This document shows, piece after piece, positions 10,001-62,244 of a stretch of DNA of 64,000 nt (the stretch's first letter is position 1; each line of letters begins with the position of its first letter). The translations under genes and the position numbers were made by a program. The stretch comes from Stropharia rugosoannulata (taxonomy: Eukaryota > Basidiomycota > Agaricomycetes > Agaricales > Strophariaceae): contig JANCIK010000006.1 of NCBI GenBank assembly GCA_028532985.1, forward strand, positions 2,480,001 through 2,544,000, written 5' to 3'. The notes beneath the pieces are model-generated. The model had not been told where the DNA came from. It did not search any database and saw only the letters and a program-made list of their open reading frames with translations.

Positions 10001-13000
10001 GAACATAGCCATCAACTCCTCATCTTTGTAATCGACAAACTGGAATTGGTATGGCACGCGGCTCTTCAACCCTGGATTGTGCTCAAAAAACTTCTCCATT
10101 TCCTTTCTGTAGCCCGCTAGGATGAAGATTAGTGTACCGACATTGTTTTCCATCTCAGCCAGGAGGAAGTCGAGGACGGCAGCACCCCCAGAGCTGTTTC
10201 CATTGGTGAGCTGGTATGCCTCATCAATAAAGATTGCACCCCCGTGCGAGGCAACTGCTTTTTCTACGAGTTTCTTTGCTGCGTCGACGCCTTCATTGGC
10301 TAGACTTGCTCCGGTCGTCTCTATGAACGTATTCCCTGGAATGGCCCCAACCTCGGCAAGAAACTTGCAGTAGTGTCGCGCTACCGTGGTTTTTCCTGTA
10401 GAGAGTTCCAATTACATCATGTCAAAGGAAAACACTCTAACATACCTGTCCCAGGATTCCCCAAGAGCACTGCATTGAATCGCTCTTTCTTCATGGATGC
10501 ATTCTGGCGTTGGGCTATGTCAATTTTGGCCTTGATTTTCAACACCTCTTCCTTGATAGTTTCGAGGCCAGTCATCGCCATAATATCATCAATTGTGGAG
10601 CTGACTGCACCGTCGATGTTCTTCATGCACTGCCACTCTTGCACCGACTTGGATGGTTTTAGTGGGACAAATGGTTTCCCGCCATTCTTTATATTCTTCA
10701 TCGGAACTGCTGGCTGCTGGAATGGGGCAGCAACACTATTCCAGATTTTTCCCAACAATGACGAAGCGGGCGAACTTGAATTTTCGTCTGATCTGGCTTG
10801 TGGTTGTGAACTACTAGGGCTGGTGGTGTTCGTCCGAAGAGGTTGAACAGTGATTGTAGTAGGGATCGAATTGGGCTGCGGAAGACCAGAAGGAGTGCCT
10901 ATATTTGCAGCGGGGTGGTTTGGCTTAGAGCCCACGACTGGAGTCGATGCTGGTCCGGGGGTCATTACTCCTCGAGCCCGTAAGGCAGCAAGGTCGGCTT
11001 CTTTCTGTTTGATGGCATTTTCGCGCTGAAGAGTAACAAGCGCTTCTTCTTGTGCTTTCCGCATCGCTTGCATTTCCATGTCAAGTTTGTCCAACCTAGC
11101 AAGATGAGCTTTCTGTTCTGCTTCCTGACGAGCTTTCTCAAGCAAATCTTCCTGCTTCTTTTTCCTCACCATGTCCTTCAACCTGGTGCACTTGCCGCAA
11201 TCTTTGGGAGGCCCGCGGCTGCAATGCCACACCTGCAGGTGATGACTTTGGCATGTCGACGACTGCATTTCCATACAATTGACCCGTGAGTGATCCTTAA
11301 ACATATGGCATTTTGAAGGACATTCATGGCCGCATATCAGTTTTGCACCGCTAGATATATAATAATTATCAAACTGGTAAATACGACGTGGACAAATATT
11401 TACCAGGGATGTGCGCAGCCGCCGTCGGGACAAATTTCCTCAAAATCTCCGACCGTTTTCAATATGGATTTCTGGTCTGGATGTTGTTGACAAACGACAG
11501 GAAGCCCATCGTAAATGTGTTTTCCATCACCAAGCAATGTAAACAAGCTTCGCCATAGTTCCCCTCCCTTCCGCGCATTCTTGAATGTGTTTGCATTACC
11601 AATCATAATTAATGCGTTCCGGGCACGGGAGAGAAGGACATTTAACCTCTCAGGGGAAAACATAAACCCAATGTCACACTTGGGGTTGCTTCGCGTGAGA
11701 GACACAATCACAATATCACTCTCTTCTCCTTGATAGTTATCTGGAAAATATGATCAGAATTGAGAATATGAACATATAATGACATACCGATTGTTGCGAG
11801 ATGGATGGGATTTTTTTTCACCTTGGCTTCGCCTGGGTTCATTAGTCCTGCGCGGATAAGCTCTGCGGAGTCCAGATCATTCAAAATGGGGTCTGCCTCG
11901 TCCTTAAGGATGGATCGTAGCTTCTGCAGTTGGCCGAGATATGGCGTAAGAATGACAAGCTTATCCGTTCCATACCCCTGCTGAGCAAGGTATTTGACAA
12001 TCTTTAAAATCATGAATATTTCGAATGAATTCTGTTTAGAAGTTTTGGAACCTCCGTCGATTGTGTCAGCCAGCAATTTATTCTCATCTTCTGGATTTTC
12101 ATGATTTATAAAGACAATGTTGTCCCGTACACCACGTAAGTCTGGCCGGTCTTGCGTCTTTGGAGCGTCCGTGAGTTCTGGATACGTGAGATGGCGAATT
12201 AGGGCAGATATTTCTGGTCGCATACGGTGTTGCTGAGACAAGGTTTGGTGAGGATACTCCTTCATAATCAAACGCTCAAATAGTGATCGATTGAGGTCGT
12301 AGCCTTCTCCTTTCTCCACCGTTAAAAGATAGTTATTTACCTTGGGCCTCAACTGCCTATATGACATATGAATAATGTACATTCGTCAGATATTGAAGTA
12401 CGCACTTATGATCACCTATTAGTATCATTTGCGATGTTTCGAGCCCTAGGGACATCAAGACGTGGCTCTCGAGGATTTCTCCCGCCTCTTCGACTAGAAG
12501 TACCTGTGGGTTGAACGCTTGTATTTCTTCACGATACATCGCTGCCGCAGTTGTTGTGCATCCCAAGACTCGTTTATTTCGAAGCACTGCGACTCTGCCA
12601 GAACCGAACGCCTGGGAAAGTCTCATTTGACAACGATTATATTCCTGAGCATTGTCGCACAGCTCATCGATGGCCTCTAGAAGGAGTTTATCCTTCCAAC
12701 GGTCTAAACATGCCTTTCTTTTACTGTTGTTGTATGTCCATACTTTCTCGCCGCCTTCATCGGTCACATGAAAAACGTTCTGCTTGAAGCTTCCTGCATC
12801 GATATTTCTCGACCAGCGATCAATCAAGTACTCCGGACCAATGGCTTTGCCATCTTGCCCAACAACTTGCATATCGTTGTCCAACTCTGGAACACAAAAT
12901 GCCTCAAAAAAGGTAGGATCCTCGATTTCAAGATAGTCGAGGATTTCGAGCAGAGGGATCTTGGAAGAATTGTAACGTTTGAAGGCCGCTGTAGTCACAT

Positions 13001-14817
13001 TTATCAATGGTGTTATCTGACTTTTGAGATCATCTACAATATTGTAGTCCGCCTGATTCAGTCCTGCTCGATTCTGGTTCCGTAAAGCCAGTGGTTCTGT
13101 GCGCTGCGTTGACTTGCCACCGAGTCTTACCATTGCTGACTCGGGAATACCAATATCAAGTAGGCTGGTTAAAACATCATCCAAAGCATGGTTTGTATAA
13201 CAGACCACTAGTATTCTTTGCGGCGTGTAGTCATGAATAGCTTTGGCTAGTAGCGCCCCAATAAACGATTTTCCGGTGCCTCCATAAGTAATATCAGCAC
13301 ATGCAATCATAAAGCGATGAAATAAATTACTCACCAGGCGGGCCCTGAATCAAAGAGACTTTCTTGGTGAGACCGCAGAGCAATGATGCTGATTGCGATG
13401 CATCCAAGACGATGTCTTTCGAAAGAGATAATATGCGTTTGAGATTTATGCACGGGTCAAGTTCGAGTGCGCGAACAACAGGCACTGCCTGCTCGGAAAC
13501 TTCATCCAAAACATCGCCCTTTTTCCAGAGCAGCAGTTCAAACGACATAGGGAGAGTCTTTGCCTGTTGAAGACCTTTCAAGATGGGTTCGTATCCGAAT
13601 AGTGCCGTATCGATCTGTACAAGTGAAAGATCTGTCCGTGATTTGAGCCCGTATAGTGCTTTCCGTGTACTCTCTGCCTCGCTGAATTGCAGCACAATTT
13701 CTGGCGGACTTTTTGAAAGACGTTCTTCATTCCGGTTGATGGTGGCGAAGCCAATAAACTGGTCTCCAGCGAGCAAACACGCAAGTGATTGATGTTTAAA
13801 GAAGTTGCGCTTTTGCTCAAGGAAGTCCCTGCGCTGTTGTTGACTCGTGAGCCCCTTCATCTGCGGGAAGTCGGCGGTGCAACGACAAACCAGCCCCCAA
13901 TCAGAGGGCCTTTTAGCTTCAAAATCAATGTTGATAACGGCCAATCCTGTAACCTTGGAACCTCTGTGAAACCCTTTCTTCTTGTTCATAGCAATCAGAA
14001 TTTCCTCCCGCAGCTCTGACAACATGTCTTCTCGAAGAAGGCGAAACTGGTTATCCAAATGAATCGCAACACGGCTGGGCTCTGTTGCAGGATCTTCGAG
14101 CACACTCGCTGGCCTCAGGAACGACTGCCGGATCGACTGTAATTCCTCTGCAGTTGGGAGAATAGAAATTTTATGGAAGTCCACGAAGTCATTGTCGTGC
14201 CGTCCACCTGGACCATTGATAGTTGCATGACTATCGATGACCGTGGAGTTAATAATCTGAACGGTGTTGAGGACCTCATCTAATTTCTGCGCTACTGTGA
14301 CTGTGTCGCGGGACGCCGACGAAAGAAGTTTGTTTAAAATAGTTGGCATGTCGTTGTCCAGACGGAATGATATCGCATCGTCATCTGAAGGAGACATGCA
14401 CAATCGTAAAAGTAACCATCCAAAGGAATGTGTCGCGGCTTCGTCAAGATCACCATTGAGAAATGCTTTACGTAGCTCTATCCAAAAAGTTGGAGGGTTT
14501 ACCAGCTTCAGTAAAAGGTCGCTCAGGAACAAGCCATTGTTGATGACTGCGAGTTGATCGTTTTGCAAATACCGAAGTATGGCAGAACCAAAGGAGTTGA
14601 GAAACTTCGGGCTCAGATCGTAGCGAATGGCGCTTTGTAGAGCACTGAGGCCGGCCTTGCTCCCTACAAGTTTGGTGACACAGTCGACAGGATTGGTCTG
14701 GGAGGAAAAGGCTTGAAGAAAGATAGGGCCCAGGTGCGGCGTGAGCGGCGTCTTCCCGGAAAGGATATCGAGGTATGTTCTGTGCTGCCGGGCAGCTCGA
14801 GTAGCATCGCGGTCCAT
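7050..14817 (-). CDS. ZNFX1/Hrr1-like SF1 helicase fused to three CbxX-type AAA modules (copy 1)
   Basis: A protein of roughly 2,400 residues in about ten exons. Order: a helical N-terminal region (to about 490); an SF1 RNA-helicase core with Walker A GPPGTGKS at about 495, LVVCYTNHALDDVL, motif II VEEAGE, GDHKQLRPKVNNY, QQHRMRPEI and SPERLNVLLSRARNALI; an NF-X1-type cysteine/histidine stretch (CPDGGCAHPC, CGHECPSKCH, CSRGPPKDCGKC); a coiled coil and Pro/Ser linker; then three AAA modules with Walker A GNPGTGKTT, GSPGTGKTT and GPPGTGKTT near 1385, 1660 and 1945, each with a DEAY Walker B and AGY sensor. An RG-rich linker, a long ERA-rich coiled coil and a C-terminal motif CPAGFQWVNMGSYYRCRGGS follow. 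The helicase half resembles animal ZNFX1 and fission yeast Hrr1, which work in small-RNA pathways. The AAA half is of the CbxX/CfxQ/SpoVK family. All catalytic motifs look intact. The biochemical role in this fungus is inference. Confidence 0.92.
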
Positions 14818-15484
14818 GATGATAACTCCAAAGTGTGGTGGAAGGAGTAAGGATGTACCAAGAACGGCGCTCTGTTATTAGAGATAACAGCTGTATACCC
14901 ACCAAACTCTAAATAGGCGCCCGTGCACGAGACCATGCGATGAGTTGGTCAGGCCTACAGGAGGGATCTGAAGGACCTGTCCGGCATAACTTCGTAGGAG
15001 AAGCCTGATCTAGTGACTGGTATAGCTAAATCAGCTAATGCTTGTCGAATTTGCGAGCTGCTTATATACGATTGTGGCAGGTGAGCCAAAGCTGAGCCGT
15101 ATGTCCGGTCAACAAGCGCAGTACAGTTTCCGCAAAGTTTTCATAGATGTAAAGACTATAATAGTGTGCAGAGTTTGCATAGAAGAGTGACTTCCGGGGC
15201 GATATCAGTGCAAGGATAGATTTGGGATGAGGGCAAATAGGTAGTAGCAGTTGACTGGCAGGGTTATGTTTTAAGTGTTTGCAGTTGGTTTGCAGCTTTA
15301 TTTCGTATAACCGATTATCGATGGGCGGAACAAAGGAGCACCGCCGCGACCGTGACTGAGCATCCCGCGCTGTACGGTGTCGCGCACCCCGCCTGGCGTA
15401 CCTACTATAGAGTCCTTACATTACATAAACATTGACAACAAACATTTGTACCTCAAGTACGTTCGTTCGTGACGGTACATGGGT
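14818..15484. other. 5' flank of helicase copy 1 and left edge of the island
   Basis: No coding frame is supported. The stretch holds the promoter of the minus-strand giant gene, a GC-rich 15-mer at 15382-15396 that recurs inverted at 29344-29358 (14 of 15), and the leftmost GTAC-N5-GTAC dyad at 15448-15460. Confidence 0.5.
15448..15460. promoter_or_regulatory. GTAC-N5-GTAC dyad, leftmost copy
   Basis: The sequence GTACCTCAAGTAC is flanked by T and G. It lies 25 bp beyond the stop of the 15485-15984 gene and is the left limit of the motif's distribution. Confidence 0.7.
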
Positions 15485-15984
15485 ATCAATAAACATATTT
15501 TTTGTAACTGTACGTCTGGCCATCCTAAAAATATTTTAAGAACATACAGGCTGGAATACTGAAGGTCGTACCTCCGTCTGAGTGTATATAAGCTGCACCA
15601 CCTCCTTGAAATCGTCATATCGGGCGCTTTCTGTCGTCGAATCTTGATGAGCGAAATATTCGAACTTGCCCCCCCAACCCTCGATACCGAAATGCAATGT
15701 GCCTGTCAGTCGATCTGAGATGCCGTACAGACGCGCTGTCATGTGCTTTGATCCTCCACACGAGTTGCTTGTGTGTGAACCTTGACTGTAGATCAATTCA
15801 GTATATTAGCACAGTAAAAAACAGATAGATGAATATAAAAGACTGACAATACCACAAATTTCTCATTATCAGCAAGTCCTTCCACATCCTGCAGGTGCTT
15901 CATGGCTTCTTCTATCCTCTTAAGGTATTCTTGGTTCTCTGCAGACCACTTAGGTAGGAAGGACTTGTAGAAAAGAAGCTCCAT
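15485..15984 (-). CDS. Small unrecognised protein
   Basis: Three short exons by eye. The first (from the ATG at 15984) gives a helical start with ENQEYLKRIEEAMKHLQDVE. A phase-compatible intron (donor GTCAGT) then leads to FQGSHTSNSCGGSKHMTARL and GTLHFGIEGWGGKFEYFAHQ, then ARYDDFKEVVQLIYTQTE. A second intron (GTACGA...TTTTAG) leads to DGQTYSYKKYVY and a TGA at 15487-15485. The product is about 135 residues, globular-looking, with no recognised domain. A longer reading without the last intron would end PSVFQPVCS. It is the first gene of the dyad-rich island. Confidence 0.45.
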
Positions 15985-16359
15985 GGCTTGTGGGGTGAAA
16001 GTAGCTCAGATTTCAGTCATTATATACATTCAAGTAGGCTATTAGTCGTTAGTATCCATGGTGAAGAGGATCTCCAGAATCTTAGAACAAGCTCAAGAAG
16101 CAATGCCTGCAGGCAACCTTAACAGATGGGCAGGGTCTAGGGCGCTTAGTCGTCATTCTGTTAAGCGCCCAATATGGAAAACCATGTTATTATTAACAAA
16201 ATAACCTATTCTAAGAGTTAATACATGCAATCAAGCCCCAGACTATGTATGCAACATGCTGGTCATGGTGGAAGGCTGCTGAGGGTACAAACAGACTTTC
16301 ATAGGGTATATGAGGCGCGAGAAATAGACGCTTATTTGGTATATACCACCCGGTTTATT

Positions 16360-16604
16360 GTACTCAAGGTACAGTGCAAGTTTTCGTCCTCTGGGTACAA
16401 AAAACCCGTGGGGACGCGTCACCTGACGCACTAATAAAACATTGTACCGCACGAACGGTGACCGGTGAAAGACCGTACGTATGGTACGAAGTTTTTGTCC
16501 CCTGGGACCTGGGTACAAAAATCCGTGGGGACGCGTCACCTGACGCACCAATAAAATATCGTACCGCACGAACGGTGACCGGTGAAAGACCGTACGTATG
16601 GTAC
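16360..16604. promoter_or_regulatory. Dyad cluster A (3 perfect copies)
   Basis: Perfect GTAC-N5-GTAC copies are at 16360-16372, 16475-16487 and 16592-16604. Decayed copies reading GTACCGCACGAAC are at 16444 and 16561. The last two perfect copies are part of the tandem duplication. Confidence 0.75.
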
Positions 16605-16605
16605 G
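16378..16605. repeat. Direct tandem repeat, two units (111 and 117 bp)
   Basis: Unit 1 is 16378-16488 and unit 2 is 16489-16605. They abut and differ by a few substitutions and one small insertion (GGACCT) in unit 2. Each ends in the same dyad, CGTACGTATGGTACG. Confidence 0.9.
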
Positions 16606-16970
16606 ACAAATAAAATGAGCGGCATGCTCCCATTACCCTCAATCCTACCGTCTCTTCCTTCCCCACCCATCATGCACAGTCAGCCCGTCCCTGAACTCCC
16701 CTACTTATGAAAACTTAGTGAATCCAAAGAGTTGCCAAAGAGGTCAATAACCTACCACTTTTGTCGGTACAGCAGCATCCTCAAAAGACATTATTAATCA
16801 GAGGCTTCTACTAAAGGGTACATAAGGTGCACCTACAGATTTAAACCTTTCATAATCGACGACGTTTAATGATCGACCGTTACATGCTTCTGGAAGCATG
16901 ATAAAAATAGCCCTATGTACGTACCTACCATATGGGAATGATATTTGGACCTATTTTAAGACTTGTTATT

Positions 16971-17082
16971 GTACGCCTGGTACGCAAATGACCTATGCCA
17001 TATATATTGTACGTCAGGTACGATATTTTAATTGTACATCAGGTACAGACCTCGTCAATACTAAGTAGCGTACACCACGTAC
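16971..17082. promoter_or_regulatory. Dyad cluster B (4 perfect copies) upstream of the 17218 gene
   Basis: Copies start at 16971, 17009, 17034 and 17070, so the spacings are 38, 25 and 36 bp. The last copy ends 135 bp before the start codon at 17218. Confidence 0.75.
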
Positions 17083-17217
17083 AATAATTTATAGTGGCCG
17101 AGGCTGTTCCACGTGGGAATGAATGCTTATCACCAGCGATTGAACTTTGCCAGATAGATATATCACGCACATAACTGGAACATACTACTGATAAGAAATC
17201 CGTGGCAAGCTATCACC

Positions 17218-17750
17218 ATGTCCAGCTCCCCAGAAGATCAACCAAGGCGCGGATTCCTGTACTTTCCTTGCGGCGTCAATGTTCCGCTGTACAGGGTATG
17301 GGGTCAGTTCACGGAACACGAGAGGCGTTCCATAATCTCGGAATTTGATTTCGAGATTGATTACTACATGGACATGAATGGTGAAGATCTGTTGGACACG
17401 GAGAAACCGTACGATGTAGCTAAGGGAGTTCACATGCACACGAGTATGGAGCATCTTGGGAAACGTATTGTGAGTAGACTTGCCTTTGACTCCCCTTGTT
17501 ACAACCTTGTTATTGACCCATCTGGTTTCAGTGGTCACTTGCTTTTGAACTCGAGGACTTAGCGCAGAGCAAAGAATTGTGGGCTCTTTGTCGTCGTGTA
17601 TATGACTTGCAAGAACGACTACGAAATAGGTTAAATAAAGAAGTCGAGGACGAGTCCTATCAAGAACGCAGCCGGCCCTTCCAGGGCATTGGAGAAATGG
17701 TTCAGGATTCTTTGGAGGTTGAGCGGATGTTGTTCCGGGACTCACCATAG
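17218..17750 (+). CDS. Small acidic/helical protein, unrecognised
   Basis: Two exons: 17218-17469 and 17532-17750, with a clean intron (GTGAGT...TTTCAG). The protein (about 156 residues) begins MSSSPEDQPRRGFLYFPCG, continues with HERRSIISEFDFEIDYYMD and, after the join, WSLAFELEDLAQSKELWALC, and ends in a charged helix with LQERLRNRLNKEVEDE and VERMLFRDSP. No known domain is seen. The splice keeps frame and gives balanced composition, which supports coding. Four dyads lie just upstream and seven more downstream, before the next gene. Confidence 0.55.
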
Positions 17751-17808
17751 ACATGTAACATTGCACGTAGTACCTAGAGTATAATAACCTCTCTGCGTTC
17801 TCTCAGTC

Positions 17809-18035
17809 GTACTCTTTGTACAACGAGAACAGCGTGCTACAAGTACAACATGTAGTGCAATGGACATAAGCGTACGAGGCGTACGATAATAAGCGCGTAC
17901 CAACAGTACGCTAAGATAGGATCACGAAATACTGTACCTTGCGTACAGACTTCTAAAGCGTACGAAAAGTACGAAAGTCAGAGCGTACCCAGAGTACGGC
18001 CATTCTAAATTAAGCATATTCTGTACTTGTAGTAC
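17809..18035. promoter_or_regulatory. Dyad cluster C (7 perfect copies) with TATA-like box
   Basis: Copies start at 17809, 17872, 17897, 17934, 17960, 17985 and 18023. The spacings are 63, 25, 37, 26, 25 and 38 bp. The last copy is followed at 18041 by GTATATATGC, a TATA-like element, 60 bp before the ATG at 18101. One-mismatch copies are at 17769 and 17843. Confidence 0.8.
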
Positions 18036-18283
18036 GACAGGTATATATGCTTTGTAGCGGTGTGATCCCCATAAATTTTCACCTTAACTACACCCTCCAC
18101 ATGCCCAACGTCATCAATCATCGTTCCTCACTGAAGACCATGCCCAACAATCAGTCAGGAGATATAGTCGCTCTTTTAGCAGCGGGAACTACTACTTAAG
18201 GTCAGCGCTTTTGTGCTTTTGAAATATCTTCGCTGACGTCGTGCAAAGAAATCAAGAGAGAGAGAGAGAAAGCACGTATTCGC

Positions 18284-19086
18284 ATGGCCAAAAAACGAGC
18301 AACGAGGTGTGTCTAGGAAACATATTCCCTGTCACATTCTAGTTATATGCTCCCAGTCAAGGAAAACCTTCTGAAGCCCAGCGCAAAGCACATGCAATGG
18401 CCAGTCATGCATACTACCTAAGGTACGTTGGGATATGCCTTTTGGCTACTGCTTACAAGTATAATTTGTAACCAGGAATAAAGAGGCTGAGAACGAAAAG
18501 GCGAGGCAACGCATGACAAAGCGGCGGGCGGCTTTGAGAGCTAAGTACGTTTCAAAGACTCGACTAGTTGATCCATACAGATACGGGCGCCTACTAATCG
18601 TCTCTGCTACCTAGGTCAAATGCAGAGTCTGCCACTCAGTCCGCAACTATTGAAGACTGCAGATCCCATCAATCTCAACCACCCATACAATCTCAACCTA
18701 CCCTCAGCGCTCCTACCGCACTTGACTCGGTGACTTGTGAAAGGTGAGTACCCATTTGTATCTGACCTGATATGATATGAGTCATCTTTCTAAATTCGTC
18801 CAGATCTGAGATAATGATACGAAATTATCGGCACATGATTGCTGTTCAAATCCAGCCTTACACGGCAGACATTTTTCCCCGTCGCTTACTAGGGTCGGGC
18901 CTTGGCCTTTTCGACGAGCGTCCCATAAATACCAAACAGGTAATCAACTGCAACTCATTCGTATCAGCAATGGACCGTATACATGACAAGATTTGGAGTA
19001 AGCAACGGTCTGCAGAAATGAAGCACTTATGTGCAAGATTTGGGATAGAGGCCGCCGCAGTGTATTCAAGCGACTCGGATGCTTAA
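18284..19086 (+). CDS. Basic nuclear-type protein with RRAALRAK-like segment
   Basis: Several short exons can be joined in frame from the ATG at 18284 (MAKKRATS), through GKPSEAQRKAHAMASHAYYL and RNKEAENEKARQRMTKRRAA, to a Ser/Gln/Pro linker and a last exon from about 18804 (SEIMIRNYRHMIAVQIQPYT...YSSDSDA) ending with TAA at 19084-19086. The arginine/lysine-rich segment is of the kind seen in many uncharacterised agaricomycete proteins and suggests nucleic-acid binding. That is a composition argument, not a domain match. An upstream ATG at 18101 sits at the right distance from the TATA-like box, but I could not connect its frame; the original start may include one more exon (a REREK-coding GA run at 18251). 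Confidence 0.6.
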
Positions 19087-19219
19087 TTACATACATGACG
19101 TAACATCATTTCGTTCTGTAATCCTTTCTGGAATTGGAATAAAATTTTATCACTTAAAACATCCGTATTGTCTTGGTAAGAACCTTGATAAGACATTCGA
19201 TACGCACATATGTAGAGCG

Positions 19220-19770
19220 ATGGCAAGCGCTGCTCAACCTCAACTCCTAGATATGAACTCACCAAACGACGTCCATGTACACTTGCTTATGCTGGCGCAT
19301 CAAGTAGACGAAATCAAACACATGTTTCAGTCGTTGCTCGACGCACCTGGCACAGTACTACCAGCGTTACCTCGTGATGGTGAAGCTATGAGTGGTATGA
19401 AATCGTTTGTATATGCCCGACCCAACCTTGCATTACTGACATGAAGTTCTCTCATACAGACGAATTTCTGGAGTTCTATTACGACAAATTGTGTGACAAG
19501 GACTCGCCGCAACACCCAAACATGGAGGCAGTACGAGAGGTGTACGCAAGCATCATCTCAGAGGCACCCGACATCATACAAGCAGAGGCCGCATACGAAC
19601 AAGCCCGACAGTGCTCCATGCGCTTCCTCGAAAAACTTCCAGATCGGGAATATATTCTCCGACAATCAGAAGAATTTTTCGAAACCCAGGAATGTGCGCA
19701 ACTGGTGATGCTTATTACTACTCATCTGGGAATGAGGGATTTCTATATGGGGGATTTGGCTAGTACGTAG
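19220..19770 (+). CDS. Small helical protein, unrecognised
   Basis: Two exons: 19220 to about 19398 and about 19459-19770, joined by an intron starting GTATGAAATCG and ending CATACAG. The product starts MASAAQPQLLDMNSPNDVHV, has a helical region (LLMLAHQVDEIKHMFQSLLD), then DEFLEFYYDKLCDKDSPQH, AAYEQARQCSMRFLEKLPDR and a C-terminus ending FYMGDLAST. About 160 residues, acidic, with no recognised domain or membrane segment. It lies 134 bp behind the previous gene on the same strand and has no dyad of its own upstream. Confidence 0.58.
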
Positions 19771-19930
19771 TAAGACCGGGGGTACACTTCCCGCTTTTGT
19801 ACATGTGTATCCATCAGTCCACCGTGTGATCGCTCTGTAGCCTGAGGTCGCCCAGCCTCGCCCAGCATATTTACACCCTATTGGAAATTCAAGGTTTGGC
19901 CAATATCACCTAGATAAGATGAATGCTATC

Positions 19931-19982
19931 GTACGCCCAGTACAAATTTATTTTCCCCTGCTTTCCCCCGTACACACAGGAC
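19931..19982. promoter_or_regulatory. Dyad D plus one decayed copy, upstream of the 20027 gene
   Basis: A perfect copy is at 19931-19943 (GTACGCCCAGTAC). A one-mismatch copy is at 19970-19982 (GTACACACAGGAC), 39 bp on. The start codon at 20027 is 84 bp past the perfect copy. Confidence 0.65.
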
Positions 19983-20026
19983 GGTACATACATCACAGTA
20001 TTGACAACTTCGTAACTCACTCAAAT

Positions 20027-22146
20027 ATGTCTCAAAACAATGATCAACGTAAGTAATGTATGTTGTGCATATAAATGTTTATTTATACAATGCCAGTGGT
20101 TGCGGCTCGTAAGGAGGTGAGGAGGTTGACAAAGAAGTGGGATCATGTTAAAAGACGAGCAAACACAGACCGTACGCACAGGGTAACTTTCAAACGAGTT
20201 ACCGCATATACTAACTTCTGCAAACACATCTAGCCGACAAAATTGCGACGAAAGCTGAGCTTAAAGCCGCAAATGCGTTGGTTGAGGCTTTACTTGAATT
20301 TGGGTGCGTCTGGCATATGTCTTATACATGACCATAACTAAGTATCAGGGGCATTCAGAACCAGCCCGTTAACCGAACCTATGTTGTCCGACGATGACCA
20401 CGACAATATCCCTGGAATCACATTATCTGATCTGGCGCCCACTTCCGCTGTAACCGAGGGTACAGAGCGTATGGTCATCGATCCCGTTTTATTGCAGATA
20501 TCTGAAGTATCTGCCGTCGCAGAAAAGGTACGCCAGTTACATTTATTTCCCACAAGCTACTAAAAACTAACTATGAGATTTCGTTGTTTAAGGTTTTTGA
20601 TCCCCCTGTTACGGTGTCCTTGTCTGCATCGCCCTCTCTCGGCGACATTGTTCCAAACCACTCAGGCCATAATTCTACTGAGGCAAAGGATGACCAGCAC
20701 CCCATAGGTCCCAATGACCGAGGTTTCAATGTCCAGCCGCCGCGCGCTGACCCTACGAAGCCGAGTAACTGTGCCGAGCCCCCCTGCGGTCCCAGTGACC
20801 GTGTTTCTACCCAGGAGAAGACTGAGGTCCAGCCCGCCGTCGAGCCGTTGGATATCCAGGCCGCCAGTCCCAGTGCTGACCGTGTTTCCACCAAGGGAAA
20901 GGGTCGGGATGTCCAGTACACTGTGGAACAACATCCGTTGCCAGGTCCACCTCATCATGAACTGCTCGCCATGTACGGTGACCAACTCTCCTTGAATTTG
21001 ATGAACTACGATGAACTCGATCGTGTCGAGAGCGAAGGCTCGTACAAAAGGCAGAAGACTTCAAATAAGTCCGAGGACGCCACTAGAGAAATTTCTTCAG
21101 GGCCCAGTGGTGAGGCTGCTAAAGCTCGGAAACAAGCCAGTGCGAAGAAGGCGTCGGGTGCGAAGAAGGAGACCACCGAGAAGGTGTCGGCTAGCTCCAA
21201 GTTACCGGAGACCAAAGTTGCGGCGAAACTGGTTTGGGGAGATCTCTCCGAGGAGGACCAGGAGACTTATAACGGTAAGTTAGCAATTCGAATTCTTAAT
21301 CTATGTTGTTACTTACTTGAGACCTCGTACTTTAGAAGCAGGTGCGGAGGCCATTACAGAATTTGTCACAGAGAACATAGAAATACCCAGTGTTCTCAAG
21401 GTAATGGTGTTTCAAAACCAGCCGTACCTTCCAATGGCCGCCACATTTTCTGCTGAAGTTGCCATCGCTTTCTTAACGTCGGGACAAGGAAATATTCGCT
21501 GCATCCATCACTATAACGACCGTAAGGAGGATAAAGGTCCGGACGGCCCTGACATCTTAACAGGGATAGCAACTTCTCGTAGATATTACGGTGAAAGGCG
21601 ACCATTGGCTGTTCACTGTGGCTGCTCACTCGACGACACCCTCTATCAATTCTACCTCTGGAAGACTCTAACGGTTCGGTCAGGCAACCCAGCACTGTAT
21701 CATTGTCCCTACAATATGGGCTCACATGGACGCAGGGCGCCCAACCCGCGTGGCAACTGCGCTACTCGGCGTTTCTGGATTGGTTCTCTTGTTCAGGCAA
21801 CCGGGCTATCGATATACTCTCTTTATGTGCCCGACATATCAGGCGACGAATACGCGTACCGAGTAGCCATCAAGTTACGACAGCTCAAGCGCTTCAGAGG
21901 GACCTTGCACAGCTACAGGTCCCCATCAGGATCACCTTCACAGACGAAGAAAAAGCGAAGTGGTACAGGGAAGTAACTCGCGCAGAACCGATGACGCAGG
22001 ATGACGGTCAAGCTCTCCCATTGTCATTCATGCCTGATGAACTTTCGTCGGCTGCTTGGATAATGCAGCAGCGCATACAAACTGACCAAGCAATCAGACA
22101 GTTATTCCCATTCAAACCGCCCGTCGCGGCCGTGAAGCCTAACTAA
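20027..22146 (+). CDS. Large charged nuclear-type protein, unrecognised
   Basis: Exon 1 is MSQNNDQ; the next exons give LVAARKEVRRLTKKWDHVKR, DKIATKAELKAANALVEALL and a DDD-rich acidic stretch. A long exon from about 20593 carries Pro/Ser-rich sequence and then a lysine-rich tract (AKARKQASAKKASGAKKETT) followed by KLVWGDLSEEDQETYN, faintly like the helix of an HMG-box. The C-terminal frame holds QRDLAQLQVPIRITFTDEEK and AAWIMQQRIQTDQAIRQLFP, and ends with TAA at 22144-22146. The joins between 21400 and 21800 are ambiguous: two frames are open. Possible DNA-binding or chromatin protein; function not assigned. Confidence 0.55.
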
Positions 22147-22870
22147 ACTACTTAATAGTGTAGATAGTCGTTGTCTGTATCTTGAAATAGAATAATATGC
22201 CTTTGACTTGTTAATGCGAGAAGAAACTACGAGAAGATGGTCTGATTACTATATGATGTGATAACACAAGCGGGCTATGAAGGAGACTAATTTGTATGTG
22301 CATTAGAAAGATACTAATACCTGAACTGGATCCTAACCGTTCGCCAATACTATTTCGCAACGGTATGTGATTAAACTGTGTTTCTAAGATGGTCTCTGGA
22401 ATACTATTACGTTGTAAACTAATTCTCGACGTTTTGTGTGCTGCTTGCTGAATGAAATTTATCAAACACGTCCATTGTAGCGTAGATACATATGTACTTT
22501 GTGTTTAGTGTCGACATATTTTCGCATTTAGGATAATCGTCCCCCCAAAGAAATTCCTTTGCCAATCAATACTATACTACTTTCTCTTCCTAATAATACT
22601 CTTTTTGATATAGGAGGTGACTATGGTTTACAATTGCGTTCACAAGAAGGGAGCATTCTGTGTTCGTGATGTTATTGATGCTGTTCGTGATGTTATTGAC
22701 GCTGTTCGTGATGTTATTGACACGTTCGCGATGTTATTGATGCGGTTCGGGATAGTGTGGTAATGAGTTTAAGTTGTCCTCGCAAGATAGAAATTAAAAA
22801 TTTGACATTGAACAACCAGAAGGTACATTAATATGAACTGATAATGTCGATGGTAATCTACATATTGTCT
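22147..22870. other. Convergent intergenic region with a 21-bp repeat
   Basis: Between two convergent genes. Apart from the 21-bp repeat and the 46-codon frame through it, I see only AT-rich sequence. Confidence 0.5.
22662..22752 (+). repeat. 21-bp tandem repeat inside a 46-codon ORF
   Basis: Repeat units start at 22662, 22683, 22704, 22724 and 22745 (steps 21, 21, 20, 21). The first three lie in an ATG-started frame (22623-22763) and read VRDVIDA as an in-frame heptad. The one-base shortfall in unit 4 shifts the tail into TFAMLLMRFGIVW. There is no other evidence that the ORF is translated. Confidence 0.6.
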
Positions 22871-24590
22871 TCAAGCTGTCCCGCCGGACTCAGATCCAGT
22901 GTCAGCCTCGGACTCGTCATCGTCTTCTGACTCGGACTCCCCGGCCTTATCACCTTCACCATCCATTGGGGCCTGCGTCGCTCCTGGCAAATTACCACTG
23001 ATTGCCCCAAAGCGTTGTACATAGTGTTCAAGCATAGCCTTCGTATGCGCGTTCTCGGATTCCAATGTCTTGATTTTCTTTGCCTGAAGCTTCTTTTCGT
23101 GCTGGAGCTCCACTGTATCCTTACGTTTGTTTTGGGCGGCATCATGGATAAGCTCGTGGAAATGGTTCGCAAACTCCGCACCAAATTTGCGAGAGTCGCG
23201 AACAAGGCGACTGGACATAAAATGTATTGGGGGCCCGGTTGCGTTCGGGTGTTGAGCCCCCAAAAATACCCATGAGCCAGTAAGAAGGGATAGTTGTTCG
23301 GCCTGGTAAAGTGGTAGGCGGTCAAAGTTGGAATCATTAACTGAACGCGGGGACAAATCCTACTTACACCTTCAACTAGAGTATGCAACCGACGAAGGAA
23401 AGTTTTTGATGCCTTCGCAGTACTCACTATGCTCTCTGGGGCCCTCTGCTGTCTAACAACGTCTAGTACCGCACCAAAAATAGACCGGTCAACTTTGCTC
23501 CTCGCCTAGACAGGTATGTATGCATGTAAAACGACTTACTAAAGGAGCTATTGCCTCGCTTAACACCCTGTACTGTCCCATGTATAGGGTTACTTCTATT
23601 AGGCCGAACGCGGTGCCTGCTCGGAGTTTCTCCCCTGGACGAGGGTGTATGACTGCTTAACTCCTTTGTTGGCAGTGACACTTCAGCGTCATCCATCTGA
23701 AGCAATAATGGGTCGATATCGGCATCGGATATGGGGTGACCAGCTACAATGGGGGAGGCAATCTCAGTCTCAGGTTGATGCGGCCCGCTTTGAGATCCAT
23801 GGGCTGGGTGCACAGGTGCGGTGACCTGAGAAAGGGGTTCACAGGTGGAGATGACTGCGGCAACGGGAAAGGGTGTGAGTCCACTGGTGCAGGTGCTGGT
23901 ATATTTGCCCGAGTTGGGGTCAAGGTATTTACGATAGGAGACGATTGCGGCGATGGTAGAGAGTGTGAAGGCAAGCGCCAACTGGTGGGTGTTTGTGCGG
24001 CATGTGTGTTCGGAAGGACGTTCTTGACAAGTCTCAGAACACTATAATATAAGGAATAGCATGACTACTTACCGGCGGCTGAACTTGTAATAGAGAATCA
24101 AGGAACGGGTTGACTGATACACTCTGTTATATGGGGGGGAAAAATCAATACCATAGTGACGGAGTGTTCTGGAGCAAGGATAAGTTTGGAACATACTGCA
24201 CTCGCTTGTAACTTTAGTAAATAATCTCTGCCGCTCTTAGTATGCATGCATTGAGATCTCAAAGGCCGGCCATGACAGCCTTGATGACAGTGGGACGGGC
24301 TTCTGGACTTGGTGGATTCCTTGACAGGGCTCTTATTTGCCGACTGACGTTGTGCTGTACGCTTTGGTGATGTCAGAATGAGAAGTACGCCGCAATACAT
24401 ATGTGTGAGGGCGCACCTTTGTTGGTGACAAAGCTGGCGTAGCAGAGTCTTCAGCTGGAGACTTGCGTGGTCTTCCCCTTTTCTTGACAGGAGAAGAGCC
24501 GCTGTCTGTTCTGGCGGAGGATTTTTTCGCGCTTCGTTTCTTTGGGCTGGCTGCAGCTTCTGCCGTTTTCGCGGTGCGTTGGCGAGCCAT
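22871..24590 (-). CDS. AT-hook and coiled-coil protein with acidic tail
   Basis: Starts at 24590 with a lysine/serine-rich region containing KKRGRPRKSPAED, a good match to the AT-hook core that binds the minor groove of AT-rich DNA. An intron joins it to RTAQRQSANKSPVKESTKSR and a histidine/cysteine run (SHCHQGCHGRP), then SVSVNPFLDSLLQVQPP. A proline-rich middle (23500-24000) and DRSIFGAVLDVVRQQRAPES follow. The last exon holds NDSNFDRLPLYQAEQLSLLT, a coiled coil (AAQNKRKDTVELQHEKKLQA) and a Ser/Glu/Asp tail ending at 22871. Some middle joins are unresolved. Its promoter is the dyad-rich region shared with the KDZ-like gene. The DNA-binding role is inferred from the AT-hook only. Confidence 0.55.
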
Positions 24591-24678
24591 TTGGAGCAGT
24601 GATGTAACAAGTTAAGATTGATTTTCGTCCTGCTGGCACTCCCAAACCATTAGTAATACAAGTAAAAACAGTGTAGAC

Positions 24679-24963
24679 GTACTAGAAGTACACGTACAAG
24701 GAGTGCGATGTTATGTTGTAGAGATAATTTACGTACAAGGCGTACAATGTTGGGTGAGTAGTGCAATATTGTACCGCACGTACATGTACCAGGTGTACGA
24801 TGCTGTGTCGGCTGTGCTGTATTGTACCAGGCGTACGGCTGTGTCGACTGTGCAGTATCGTACCAGGCGTACAACCTTGTGTCGGTTGTGTAATATTGTA
24901 CCACACGTACAATGTACCAAGTGTACAATAATATCATTTCTCCTTTAATCGTACTCAAGGTAC
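24679..24963. promoter_or_regulatory. Dyad cluster E (9 perfect copies) in a divergent promoter
   Basis: Copies start at 24679, 24733, 24771, 24786, 24824, 24860, 24898, 24914 and 24951. The spacings are 54, 38, 15, 38, 36, 38, 16 and 37 bp. The first copy lies 89 bp upstream of the minus-strand start at 24590. Confidence 0.85.
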
Positions 24964-25449
24964 AATCAGTACACAATGACATCATCATACCAGATCTGCG
25001 TTATCCAAGTTAATTTACAGCCTTGCTAACATTTGTGAACACCCAGCTGTTTGCAGCAGACGCACATTGTGTGCCTTCCACTCAACATCTAATTTATTCT
25101 TGGTGAGTAGTGCAATAGTTTTGTACCGCACGTACATGTACCAGGTGTACGATGTTGTGTCGGCTGTGCTGTATCGTACCAGGCGTACGGTTGTCGACTG
25201 TGCAGTATCGTACCAGGCGTACAACCTTGTGTCGGTTGTGTAATATTGTACCACACGTACAATGTACCAAGTGTACAATAATATCATTTCTCCTTTAATC
25301 GTACTCAAGGTACAATCAGTACACAATGACATCATCATACCAGACCTGCGTTATCCAAGTTAATTTACAGCGTACCCTTGGTACAATATTTGTGAACACC
25401 CAGCTATTTGCAGCAGACGTTGTTTGCCTTCCACATCTGATTTATTCTC
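24753..25449. repeat. Tandem promoter duplication (349-bp unit, two copies)
   Basis: Copy A is 24753-25101 and copy B is 25102-25449. They abut exactly, at GGTGAGTAGTGCAATA. Copy B runs straight into the ATG of the KDZ-like gene at 25453, whereas copy A ends at the equivalent point without an ATG. Each carries seven dyads; copy B has an eighth (25372-25384) whose equivalent in A has decayed. Confidence 0.92.
25123..25384. promoter_or_regulatory. Dyad cluster F (8 perfect copies) upstream of the KDZ-like gene
   Basis: Copies start at 25123, 25138, 25176, 25210, 25248, 25264, 25301 and 25372. The last ends 69 bp before the start codon at 25453. Confidence 0.85.
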
Positions 25450-25452
25450 ATC

Positions 25453-28400
25453 ATGCAGCGATACGACCCTCTGGAACCGACACATGCGCTCGCCCCTGTT
25501 GTTTATGATTCACCCCCTTCATCGCCCCTAACATCCAGAATATGCTATGAAAGCGAGCCTGAAGACCCGGTCATTGTTTCGCCGCAGAAGAAGGCGCGAG
25601 TCACTACAAAGCCTTTCAAGCGTCGCCGGAAGGTTCCTACTAAGAGTCATCTACCTACCCCGGAATCGATACCCAATTCTGATGAGCCAATGGTACTAAA
25701 CGACTGGACCAATGAACATGCGGCTGGATTAGAAGGGAATGCCTGGACATCGGAAGGTCCGCCTTTATATGAAGATCCTGAGAGTAATGCAGCCGTAATA
25801 GACGACACCGAAGCTCACGGTTACGATGCGTTCTTGGAGAGCCTGGATTGGGATGATTCAATGTTCACCCAAGTGAGCGATGATCTCTTTGTAGTACGCG
25901 GATGGAATCTACGGCAAGACTGTGCAACGGTAAGTTAACACTATGAATACACCCATGGTCTATAAACCAATGATTTGGATATTAGGATCATTTCTATCAT
26001 CTATGCAGAACACGCGAAGGGCTTGGGATATCTGTATTCTGCCTCTGTCCACACTATCACGCAACAAAGGACTGTTTCCACAAAAAGTATCTACACGACA
26101 GAGGATATGAACAGTTCCCCTTGGACAGCGGACTCAGTAGTAAGCAGAGGCAATATACTACCGTGAATGAGAGCTTTTTTCTAATAAGTTCTCTCATAGC
26201 ACATAATAACTTCTGTTTTCTATTCGCTAGATATGAGCATGTGAAAGATGACCATTATGTATCGAAGTTCTCCGTACCTCTGCCATCACTACACAGAACA
26301 ATAAAGGCACGCACATTCGTTGAGCATTGCGGTCCGAACTCAGGCGAAGGCGAATGGAAATGCGCAACCGATCCGGGAGCCCTCGATTGTGACCACATAC
26401 ATTGGGCGCGAAGAGTCCTTCGGCAGCACATTGAGGATAATGTGGGGTCGGAAAACGAGAACACCAGTGCCAATGACACTGACGTGCGGTACCCAGGTCA
26501 GTCAATCTTATCCCGCTTTACCTAACTATTCTGATATGCACCGTAATCACAGAGCGCACACCATACTTTAGAAACCTTTCCACGAGACCACTTGCTGTGT
26601 CGTACTTACCATTACCACCTCCACTATGGGCGCGTATCAAGAGCGACGGCGAATTTGATCCAATACCTACAATTCATACCGCTCCGGATCTCATTAGACT
26701 TTCTGAAACTTCGTCTTGTCGCTGTTCCAGCCCAAGAACAATGTACTCCCCGTTGTCCCCAATAACAGTGATTCCATGCAGTATTTATACGCTCACCGGC
26801 GTTCTCAAGTCCAAGATCGAGGTGCAAAAATGTCCCGTATGTACTAAGCGATTTATCGGACCTGACTGTCGTGAATATGGCCTTTTCAACTGGAACAATC
26901 GCTCGCTCTTTACTCTCGATCTCCTTGATGATTACACAAGCGCCTATACATCATCAGAAACTCCATTTGTGTCGTGGGTCACGGTGGTCAACCGCCGATA
27001 TTTCAATCGTAATGCCGGGGAATTCATCAAGGACGACACTTTCAGGGCCGTTTGGTTCTCTTATATTATGCTTGTACAGCTTGAAAAGGACATGAATTGT
27101 CCCGACTGTGGACCAACACCGGATGTTGCAATATTTGATGGTGTAACGTTGGCCTTCAACAGGAAAAATATCTTAACTACAATGAGGCCTCCTACAACGA
27201 TTTCACCAGGTGCCCCAATCAAGGATCTCGTACGCCCCGCGCCGAATCTCCAATGCCTTAAGGACAAAAATTGCGACAAAATATTAGAAGGATTCTGTCG
27301 GGGCCGAAACTAGTTCTGCCGGATGTAACGGACTTGGCGTTGAATGATAACCCTACGGATGAGACCTCCGACACAGCAACTAGAAAGCGCCAAGCTGCAC
27401 AGAAAAAGGCCGAAGAAATCCGGGAGATATTGGAGCTCATTCCATTGGTCGTTGATGCTCTCATAGACATACGTCCGGCGCTAGGGAATATATTTGAGTT
27501 ACACTGCGGGCCGGCCTCACTGATGACAAGAACGGAATCCATGTATCGCAAGTTATTTTTACAGGTACGAGTCACAAACGGTCTCTAAACAAGTATGTAA
27601 CTCATTGATCATACTCATACAGTTAGCTGCTGAAGAATCAGTACTACAGTTGGTCAATGTGGGACACCTCCCCAAGTTGTTGGCATTCATACACAATCCC
27701 ACGCGCTTATTACTATCATCACTCAAGGGCATCCCAGCCATATATTTCGTTTGTAAACATGAAATCGATTCGCTAGGCGAGGTAAAACTTGAAACACTTG
27801 AAATATGTCAGTTTCTGTATGAGACTGCCTATGTCGCCTTCGGTTCATTATCGAAGTACCACTGCATTCCCGAAATGCAACAAATAGATGAAAGCCCAGT
27901 AGCGTGGAAAGATGTAAGTTATTTGTTATGCACCTTTTTGTATTCTTATTTCACTAAAATACTCAAAGACAGGTGCATGTTACCCAATGCCACCAATACG
28001 GCAACGGCCGCACTACCCAGCCTTTCCAAATGACTCTGGGCAAGACAAGGCAAATCAAGAAAAAAGAGGAGAGGGCTGCAACAAGTTCTATTCCAGATAT
28101 GGGGAGAGTCGCCTAACCGGAGGACTTATGTGCGTGTGGTGCACCCACAGCATCTGCTACGGGTTCCATTGCATTCCGATAGCCGAAGGACGTAATGACG
28201 TATTCTCGGCCTTGTTGACGCGATGGGAAAAGGCACCAAAAATAGTTGTATACGACTTCGCGTGCGCCTTGCATCCTTATTGCATGGCTCGTGAGCCGGA
28301 GTTCTTCGCCAAAACAACATTCGCCATCGACGCATTCCACAGTAAGGGACACACCAAATGCGGACATGCCGCATTCCTAAACAATTACGGTGAAGCCGAA

Positions 28401-28589
28401 CCCAAGCTCCTATCCATAAACTCCAGCGCGGCGGAATGCGGGAATGGCGGTATCACAAGAATAAGGAAATCAGTGAGCTACATGACGCAAGACAGAGCTA
28501 TTATCTACACCAAGGTATTTATATCTATATGGAATCGCCTTAGAATACAAAAATTAGAGTCTGGACTGTATAAGATAAGTAGAAACTAA
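25453..28589 (+). CDS. CxC/KDZ transposase-like protein
   Basis: Exon 1 (25453-25929) encodes an acidic N-terminus with a basic patch (KKARVTTKPFKRRRKVPTKS). Later exons give a cysteine-cluster region (CRTREGLGISVFCLCPHYH; VQKCPVCTKRFIGPDCREYG; MNCPDCGP), of the sort described next to Kyakuja-Dileera-Zisupton (KDZ) transposases, and a helical bridge. The last exon holds a transposase-like core: GGLMCVWCTHSICYGFHCIP, IAEGRNDVFSALLTRWEKAP, VVYDFACALHPYCMAREPEF, TFAIDAFHSKGHTKCGHAAF and INSSAAECGNGGITRIRKSV. The acidic residues in YDFAC, IDAFH and SSAAE could be the catalytic triad. Terminal stop is at 28587-28589. No frameshift is needed, so it may be an active or domesticated copy. Its promoter is duplicated and dense in dyads. 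The family is firm; activity is unknown. Confidence 0.85.
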
Positions 28590-29653
28590 TGTCAACTATT
28601 AAGCATTGACTGTAGTCACATAGTTAGTAGTTAATTAAGAACATGCCCCATTACGCTAAGTACGAACATCGGAACCGTCCCAGACCGTACACTGAGTACG
28701 CAGTGCGAAAGAGTGCCGGTCGTACGCTGAGTACGATTGTCGGAACGGGCCCCGACCGTACGCTGAGTACGATTGTTGGAACGGCCCCCAACCGTACGCT
28801 AAGTACGATTGTCGGAACGGCCCGCGACCGTACGCTAAGTACAATTTGTCGGAACGGCCCGCGACCGTACGCTGAGTACGATTGTTGGAACGGCTCCCGA
28901 CCGTACGCTAAGTACAATTGTCGGAACGGCCCGCGACCGTACGCTAAGTACAATTTGTCGAAACGGCCCCCGACCGTACGCTAAGTACGAAGATCAAAAG
29001 AGATGCCGGCCGTACACTGAGTACGATTATCTTAATGGTATCGGCCGTACATTGAGTACAAAGATTGGAAAATTCCCTGGACGTACCATGTGTACAAATT
29101 ATGGACTTGCCTTAATGGTAACTCATACACATATTCGCAGATTACAATCTTGTTATACATTTAGACGCGTCCCGTCCGCTCAGTAATATAACATGTACAT
29201 TCTATGCAGCTCATAACAATTATTTCCGCTATTTTATATTCACTAAGCTCTCTCATTACTGCACAGTAGGTACAGGTCCGCTACAATGTCATCCCAATGC
29301 TCATTATGTAACACGTCGTTACCTCGCGGGCTGCCTGTGTCCTCCGGGCGGGGTGCGCACATCACATCACGGCTGGGTGCGCTTTGTGCGTCCTGTCACG
29401 TTACGGTTGTCCCCTTTATTTGATTTTCAACCGCGAACTTTTGTTTTGCACGTGTTTGGTAAGTGACACGGTTTTTATTTTTATTTCTTTCAGTGTTTCT
29501 TGTTACCGCAGAAGCAACTTGCTTCACTAGTCATGGCCATACTGCAGATACCAGACGTAGCGAGGGATTGAAAACATCATTGGACAAAGATAATGGTGAT
29601 AGTAGTAGTAATTACAGCTGTCAATGACTGCCGACCACTGTATCTATTTGGGA
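28590..29653. other. Region between the KDZ-like gene and RPC4
   Basis: The first half is the 12-dyad periodic array; a one-mismatch copy (TTACGCTAAGTAC) starts at 28651. The second half (29100-29653) has no repeat apart from the inverted 15-mer at 29344-29358 and no supported gene. The ORF at 28643-28984 is a translation of the array. Confidence 0.6.
28687..29095. repeat. Dyad array G: 12 copies at 35-37 bp period
   Basis: Perfect GTAC-N5-GTAC copies start at 28687, 28722, 28758, 28794, 28830, 28867, 28903, 28939, 28976, 29012, 29047 and 29083. Most spacers read GCTGA or GCTAA. Between dyads lies a GC-rich segment of the type GGAACGGCCCGCGACC. The outer units have diverged (ACTGA, ATTGA, CATGT) yet keep dyad and spacing, which suggests selection on the dyad rather than a recent repeat expansion alone. 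Confidence 0.92.
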
Positions 29654-32383: not shown

Positions 32384-32802
32384 CCACAGGCTAACACCTG
32401 CAAGGCTCAAGGTAAATTTCCTTTCTGATTACCTTACTATTAAGCTAACCGCACTTTATCAGCTTGTACTTATAGATTAAAGATCAACCCATGGGTCTCG
32501 ACGCTTCAAACTATCGTCCCAACTAGAGCTATGTAGTTGTAGCTGTCATTTATTTATACAAACAATTCTATCATACATCTATCGTTTTTGCTTATACCCG
32601 TGTTGCAACTTTCGCTGAGTTTTTTCTTCTTCTATTCACCAGCTTTTTTTATTATCTATTTTTGTAAGGTTCGTCTAATTGCTTACTATGATGATTCCTA
32701 TTGACCAGCGTGATATTGATAGTGACCCCGTGCGTGGGCGCCTATTTTGCGCTTCCATGTACACGAGGACTTTTCAAGTTGTCTTCACCTTCCACTGCCA
32801 TC
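32384..32802. other. Intergenic, upstream of helicase copy 2
   Basis: AT- and pyrimidine-rich (T-runs at 32620-32665), as expected for a fungal promoter. No dyads are present here, in contrast to the island. Confidence 0.5.
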
Positions 32803-61640: not shown

Positions 61641-61916
61641 TGCTACAGTGAACTATTATTATACTGTGGATCACGGAGTTATTTTGAGCCATTGCAGAAC
61701 TAGTATACTACCATGTCACACAGGACTAATAGCTTTCTAGTATATTACTGTGTTTTACAGGGCCATTGTCGACAAATGGTGATGGTCATCAGGGCAAGAT
61801 CAACCGGTGGTTCTCTATGTCGAGCAGCAGTGTCAAATGGCAGATGGGCTGTGCTAGACCGGCGATTTTGATTGTTGACTGGTGCTATTCAAATTCAATA
61901 TACTACTATTTTTCAG

Positions 61917-62212: not shown

Positions 62213-62244
62213 GGGACTATTGTAAATTATTCTAAATTTGTCTA

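Follow-up and report, generated by a model that had tools for sequence, protein, structure and literature searches.

What explains the presence of dozens of copies of one short, rigid palindrome in a single island of a mushroom genome? The stretch of DNA that raises this question (the window, 64,000 nucleotides of Stropharia rugosoannulata, contig JANCIK010000006.1, positions 2,480,001 to 2,544,000; G000:C6:2480001-2544000) contains numerous dyads composed of two GTAC half-sites separated by any five bases (GTAC-N5-GTAC). Results of our analysis indicate that the island is a whole KDZ-type DNA transposon with target site duplications and with further copies in the genome, a point absent from the first-pass annotation of the window, which was made from the sequence alone. 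The dyads are best read, by analogy with the VANC (Arabidopsis) and TnpA (maize) systems of plant transposons, as a lineage-specific self-recognition code of this fungal transposon, whose reader and function we infer.

The dyad and its site

The first-pass annotation had counted 45 exact copies of the dyad, all between positions 15448 and 29095. The dyad and its limits are upheld, the first copy starting at 15448, the last one ending at 29095, and none (0) lying elsewhere in the window; the true number is 47. The fixed length of the spacer is upheld as well: exact GTAC-N4-GTAC and GTAC-N6-GTAC are absent from the island and from the whole window (0 each), and each of the remaining spacers of 0-10 bases is represented by at most 3 copies. 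At longer distances between two GTACs the counts reach 11 (N12, 8; N21, 10; N23, 11; N25, 10), and these are mostly the distances from one dyad to its neighbour. Dinucleotide shuffles of the window contained 0.52 GTAC-N5-GTAC on average (maximum 3, 50 shuffles), and those of the transposon only 0.185 (maximum 2, 200 shuffles). Dyads with one mismatch and the N5 spacer number 20 in the transposon (1.4 per kb vs. 0.18 per kb outside), next to 17 with N6, 9 with N3, and 9 with N4; as the N6 count nearly equals that of N5, the near-misses alone cannot single out N5, and it is the exact dyads that carry the case.

The bases of the spacer vary, as had also been claimed, with 29 different spacers in the 47 dyads. 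The symmetry extends into the flanks: a pyrimidine (Y) directly precedes and a purine (R) directly follows the dyad in 45/47 cases, position -3 is A in 34/47, and position +15 is T in 25/47. The site is thus mirror-symmetric, ANYGTAC-N5-GTACRNT. Tandem duplication among the dyads involves units of 36, 38, and 117 bp and a 350-bp duplication, and because many dyads arose as tandem duplicates, 47 is too high a number for independent events. When dyads less than 200 bp apart are joined, they form seven clusters of 1, 3, 4, 7, 1, 19, and 12 dyads.

The island as a transposon

Comparison of four copies, together with the target duplications, delimits a full-length KDZ-type DNA transposon of 14,110 bp (15304..29413, plus strand), flanked by the 8-bp duplication CTTTATTT on the left (15296..15303) and on the right (29414..29421). 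Perfect 8-bp duplications were found at all four copies, each different from the others: CTTTATTT, ATTTTGTT, AAACAATG, and CATAAATT. The outermost termini match only loosely and read CG..CC. A subterminal 15-mer, GCGCACCCCGCCTGG (15382..15396, plus strand), lies 78 bp inside the left end and has an inverted partner near the right end, where the 15-mer GCGCACCCCGCCCGG (29344..29358, minus strand) lies 55 bp inside. The inverted repeat at 15382/29339 had been considered as the transposon ends and was dropped, since the comparison of copies put the ends further out. The genome contains GCGCACCCCGCCNGG exactly 8 times; these sites form four inverted pairs whose members are 13.2-14.0 kb apart.

The copy on contig C1 (L050, L051) likewise holds 47 dyads, and a relative on C12, described below, holds 23, so that the island is not unique. 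An alignment of the C1 and window copies over 14.1 kb contains 0 substitutions; its 23 indel columns fall at 19 places, 15 of which are inside runs of at least three equal bases. In the case of the C7 and C8 copies only the ends were compared, those of the C8 copy (1.1 kb) being identical to the window copy and those of the C7 copy 98.5% identical; the dyad counts cover the window and C1 copies. The transposon has apparently been mobile recently, and the relation of the C1 and window copies suggests a transposition in the very recent past, together with probable errors of assembly. As these copies differ by indels and not by substitutions, assembly errors probably account for the broken reading frames of the window's transposase and gene E.

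Predicted genes and the position of the dyads

The gene models were made by eye, and only approximate exon borders are given for genes B, C, D, E, and F. From left to right, the predicted genes are B, C, D, and E on the plus strand, F on the minus strand, and a CxC4-KDZ transposase gene on the plus strand. Predicted gene B (17218..17751) has no Pfam match; C (18141..19086), of unassigned function, contains a stretch rich in lysine and arginine that was noted by eye, its last exon having no Pfam match; D (19220..19771) has no Pfam match above the cut-off. Neither B nor D has a match at the relatives with the GTTC-type dyad that are described below. Predicted gene E (20027..22146) has a conserved set of cysteines and histidines, and F (22871..24590) begins with an AT-hook-like part, ends with a part that looks like a coiled coil by eye, and has homologues at KDZ loci. 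The reading frame of the predicted transposase gene (25453..28589) is interrupted next to a run of A at about 27.27 kb, and an assembly error is the probable cause.

The transposase matches the CxC4 domain (PF18717) with 163.3 bits at a cut-off of 26.9. Its match to KDZ (PF18758) of 20.3 bits (E 4.8e-4) is under the curated cut-off of 26.6, and of five homologues from other mushrooms three score 18.8-25.4 bits, also below the cut-off, and two have no match. The closest protein relatives are from Pholiota (60%), followed by other mushrooms, and the locus C9:268k is 49% identical to a Psilocybe cubensis protein. Searched by sequence, solved structures yielded nothing related to the transposase and, for gene E, just two matches at chance level, and Foldseek with VIA-align gave no trustworthy match for the model of a transposase homologue, a weak one by its mean predicted local distance difference test score (pLDDT, 63.6). 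Protein-database searches with gene E gave no match. Among 11 aligned sequences of E, Cys-Gly-Cys is present in 11/11 and Cys-x2-His in 10/11, the eleventh being a fragment that lacks this part. Ten homologues each of E and F were fetched out of longer lists, and five of the ten were left out of the F alignment for stop codons (L085, L087, L088, L090, and L091).

The dyads are placed in the gaps between these genes. Though predicted genes make up 64% of the transposon, they are overlapped by 0 of the 47 dyads vs. 39 of the 66 unpaired GTACs in the transposon. The clusters comprise a single dyad by the left end (15448..15460), three dyads associated with the 117-bp tandem repeat (16360..16604), four dyads 5' of B (16971..17082), seven dyads with differing spacers and steps of 25-63 bp in the gap between B and C (17809..18035), and a single dyad in the gap between D and E (19931..19943). 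The central array of 19 dyads (24679..25384) occupies the space between the starts of F, on the minus strand, and of the KDZ gene, on the plus strand, and the right subterminal array of 12 dyads, with its 36-bp unit, lies past the KDZ stop codon (28687..29095).

Dyad clusters in the genome

In the 48 Mb of genome scanned (20 contigs), single dyads number 1070 with the N5 spacer and 941 with N6; one dyad alone is thus no rarity. The picture is different for pairs of dyads 5-35 bp apart, of which there are 120 with N5 and 3 in the reversed control, vs. 8 with N4 and 0 in its control. The special feature is therefore the dense clustering of N5 dyads and not the single dyad. The first-pass annotation had named a genome-wide commonness of the motif as what would speak against it: the single motif is common (1070), and dense clusters are not (120 pairs). 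Among 50 of the 120 pair clusters, listed in contig order, 30 are in the C1 copy, 0 in C2-C5, and 20 in the window copy, with none outside these two copies. Many of the remaining 70 should lie in the C12 slices and in the C7 and C8 copies.

Certain other matches appear to be of different origin. Many of the listed GTAC-N6-GTAC matches read GTACACGGTTGTAC (e.g., G000:C1:125684), apparently from an unrelated dispersed repeat, and the pair clusters of GTAC-N4-GTAC at G000:C3:4290496-4290691 and C10:276589-277201 lie in apparent repeats of 8-bp period similar to GTACCTTC and seem unrelated to the transposon.

Dyads in related elements

The first-pass annotation had suggested a look for clusters beside other KDZ-like genes, and some of these genes do have them. 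Eight relatives were sampled as slices near the transposase gene, the percentages given for them referring to identity of the CxC4 exon; a third relative of 65-67% (C10:1720064) lies outside the slices read. Two of the eight carry N5 dyads of GTWC type, two carry other strong dyads, one a weak dyad, and three none in the slices read. Within 3.1 kb, the C12 relative (80%) has 18 + 5 = 23 GTAC-N5-GTAC, and the repeat units of its arrays differ from those of the window. In the case of the C6 relative (65%), GTAC-N5-GTAC is absent (0) from the upstream and downstream slices, and GTTC-N5-GAAC occurs 22 times downstream (expected 0.36) and 6 times upstream (expected 0.11) of the transposase gene. 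The spacing of the two dyads is equal, one base being altered symmetrically in both halves. The pair pattern of GTTC-N5-GAAC occurs 71 times genome-wide (control 0), and among 50 of these 71 pairs listed, 25 belong to a C5 relative, 24 to the C6 relative including its split-off part, and 1 lies elsewhere. In the C5 relative, E, F, and the CxC4 exon are accompanied by a left, a central, and a right GTTC array, a layout like that of the window.

More distant relatives are arranged otherwise. The locus C9:98k (51%) has 13 copies of GTAGA-N5-TCTAC, mostly spaced by 71 bp or its multiples, and C10:400k (52%) has 12 copies of GTA-N6-TAC vs. 1.2 expected. The downstream slices of C9:98k, C10:400k, C8:274k, and C13:399k contain no array. 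A 71-bp tandem array of the near-perfect palindrome GTAGAATAATTCTAC was seen at G000:C9:101650-103000 (L068), 5' of another CxC4-KDZ gene. In 30 further KDZ loci (L020-L049, 3.4-3.8 kb each with 1.5 kb of flank) there are 0 N5 dyads, and a search for any dyad in one representative of each of their 18 groups gave nothing array-like except for the low-complexity L047. Steps of 36-38 bp from dyad to dyad are shared by arrays that differ in spelling (window, C12, C6, and C10), which may reflect cooperative binding.

The transposase, E, and F

Genome-wide, the CxC4 exon gives 30 matches, i.e., 27 loci when the pieces of one locus are counted once, and homologues of both E and F lie at most 25 kb from 24 of these 27. 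The three exceptions are C6:687876 (E and F about 180 kb off), C6:446873 (frames with stops), and one locus at a contig start. A GTTC-type element appears to be split into G000:C6:685600-690900 and C6:870044-878218, in the same orientation, so that its transposase gene lies about 180 kb from its F gene; either a rearrangement or the insertion of a very large piece would account for it. Genes D and B were found only in the four copies and in C12 (67% and 38% identity, respectively), and owing to this confinement they are unlikely to be the common reader of the dyads. Across the step from GTAC to GTTC, identity is 36-37% for E, 40-44% for F, and 65-67% for the CxC4 exon.

Proposed reader of the dyads

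We consider it fairly probable that the dyads are binding sites of a homodimer encoded by the transposon, which would recognise and switch on only its own copies. The first-pass annotation had suggested a dimeric protein reading both half-sites, and this part of its reading fits the rigid N5 spacer, the mirror-symmetric flanks, and the mirror-wise change to GTTC-N5-GAAC; a dimer with two identical reading heads would explain all three. That the reader would be encoded by the element itself is suggested by the listed clusters, which lie only at elements, by the dyads keeping to gaps throughout, and by the differences of the dyads between families. The most likely candidates would be E or F, the fast-diverging companions of the transposase, followed by the transposase itself; E is ranked before F on account of its conserved Cys-x2-His and Cys-Gly-Cys set. 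Binding in the gap that separates F from the KDZ gene, next to the other genes, and close to the right end would let the dimer control or un-silence the genes of the element, and it might also help to bring the transposon ends together. Such roles are reported for VANC in VANDAL elements and for TnpA in Spm. Joint divergence of site and reader would stop sister families from activating each other.

Several observations weigh against this reading. Not all relatives combine the N5 spacer with GTWC halves, two of about 50% being arranged otherwise; C13:399k (47%) has only a weak dyad (CTGT-N8-ACAG, 5 vs. 0.15 expected), and the slices read of C8:274k, C4:1508k, and C9:268k, upstream ones only for the latter two, contain no clear dyad array. 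That E and F diverge faster is a correlation only. The AT-hook-like start of F is below threshold (15.4 bits vs. a cut-off of 17.4), and no Pfam domain above the cut-off was found in the scanned exons of E and F, some predicted exons being outside the scan. CpG is not depleted in the transposon (0.98 vs. 0.93 outside), and so nothing here points to a methylated transposon.

A related possibility, which we regard as unlikely, is that the cysteine/histidine clusters in the N-terminal part of the transposase bind the dyads as a dimer and assemble the ends, the dyads being transposition enhancers with no role in silencing or as promoters. The dyads were sought and found next to CxC4-KDZ genes, the consensus of transposase homologues contains a CxC...CxH pattern like that of a SWIM finger, and a dense array lies 318-726 bp inside the right end. 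Yet the largest array (19 dyads) sits between divergent predicted genes, with 4.0 kb separating it from the right end and 9.4 kb from the left, the outermost 1 kb on the left contains just one dyad, and across the GTAC/GTTC step the CxC4 exon is the least changed of the three when compared with E and F. The weak structure model of the transposase homologue (pLDDT 63.6) neither helps nor harms this proposal. That the transposon is driven by a transcription factor of the host, from which it borrowed a response element in the form of a GTAC-type dyad, is very unlikely: host sites are common in promoters of elements, but the single dyad is near background genome-wide (N5 1070, N6 941), the 50 pair clusters listed out of 120 are all inside the C1 and window copies, and lineages within one genome use different dyads.

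Every dyad could also form a stem of GTAC/GTAC (or GTTC/GAAC) with a five-base loop, and in 6 of 9 folded pieces z is -2 or lower (lowest -3.35), so that the dyads might act as hairpins of RNA or of extruded DNA. We find this very unlikely, because GTAC accounts for 45 of the 55 four-base N5 inverted repeats in the array regions of the window, which means that the letters matter; moreover, the predicted folds often pair different dyads, one strand has z +0.34, and compensated double changes (1) are outnumbered by one-sided mismatches (12), a modest argument given that one-sided changes are easier. Passive minisatellites, i.e., a chance motif spread by tandem duplication without selection, would account for much of the dyad count, as tandem units supply it. 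Such an origin seems to us very improbable in view of a dyad common to seven clusters with 29 spacers, its presence in other repeat units of the 80% relative, the mirror-symmetric variant at the same places in the 65% relatives, and the avoidance of predicted genes.

Comparison with known systems

PMC12730594 and PMC12810828 describe fungal KDZ elements, with 8-bp target duplications for Zisupton and for Cryptococcus KDZ1 and a CxC cluster (CxC1) in Cryptococcus. The transposon from S. rugosoannulata is like them in its predicted transposase, of KDZ type and bearing a CxC cysteine cluster, and in its 8-bp duplication, found at 4/4 copies as four different 8-mers. It differs from Cryptococcus KDZ1-3, which have terminal repeats of 139-241 bp and, in the case of KDZ2 and KDZ3, duplications of 4-8 bp; here, the outermost ends match loosely and an inverted 15-mer lies 55-78 bp inside. 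For Kyakuja, a subgroup of KDZ, a 7-bp duplication and CA..TG ends are reported in Laccaria families (PMC12730594), which is not what we found (8 bp, CG..CC). The word subterminal is absent from PMC12730594 and PMC12810828, and we found no description of such arrays in the KDZ/Zisupton literature in the parts accessible, which include PMC7641404 and cover few subscription papers. While the first-pass annotation knew of no described element of this form in basidiomycetes, comparable arrays exist in plant CACTA and VANDAL elements, and the principle is therefore not without precedent.

According to PMC5735166 and PMC10398659, VANC21 binds YAGTATTAY, a motif dense only in VANDAL21, mainly in non-coding parts, and altered in related VANDALs through tandem repeats. 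The likeness concerns a short, family-specific motif that is arrayed in the non-coding parts of one family, sporadic elsewhere, and spread in tandem; VANDALs also have a set of three genes (VANA, VANB, and VANC), and their terminal inverted repeats are degenerate, as the outermost ends here match only loosely. The VANC21 motif is arrayed in one orientation, and PMC5735166 contains no words beginning with palindrom or spacing. In our material, the arrays lie only outside predicted genes (0/47 dyads overlapping), and the relatives have a GTTC variant. No Pfam match to DUF1985/DUF287 (VANC) or to Mutator transposase was found in the frames scanned, some exons of E and F being outside the scan. 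VANDALs, whose transposase is VANA, are plant elements of Mutator type, whereas the transposase here is of KDZ type. Anti-silencing is a property of VANC, and we propose it for this transposon by analogy only.

CACTA ends, which characterise the CACTA (En/Spm) elements, are not present in the transposon, the ends of which read CG..CC and which has an 8-bp duplication. The likeness to En/Spm and Tgm concerns subterminal repeats, partly forming palindromes and differing between subfamilies in one genome, and TnpA of Spm/En is an element-encoded DNA-binding protein that reads such repeats and also regulates the element (PMC2613891). The soybean element has a 3-bp duplication (PMC2613891); our transposon, by contrast, combines an 8-bp one with a transposase of KDZ type and an array at its centre.

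Surroundings of the transposon

The transposon is flanked by divergent, mirror-image gene sets (7050-14874 on the minus strand and 32695-40428 on the plus strand of the window), which encode AAA/helicase-type proteins in the same order, 37-68% identical piece by piece. A tandem repeat of 148 bp (2.2 copies, 88% matches) is located at 61891-62217.

Implications

A wider proposal, to which we incline less than to its opposite, is that a private, mirror-image address code extends over the whole clan of fungal KDZ trio transposons, with a fixed geometry and changeable letters, and that sister families split by a one-letter change of the site together with the element-encoded dimer. The code would then be a third independent invention beside VANC and TnpA, with recognition units that look interchangeable. 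Self-recognition of transposons and its change at family splits are known mainly from a few plant systems. The genome of S. rugosoannulata holds together near-identical GTAC copies, a relative with the same code, relatives that differ by one symmetric base, and two or three candidate readers, so that the co-evolution of site and reader can be tested directly with a small binding matrix. If the reading is true, fungi would have a sequence-specific regulator encoded by a transposon, beside the TET/JBP enzymes of other fungal transposons.

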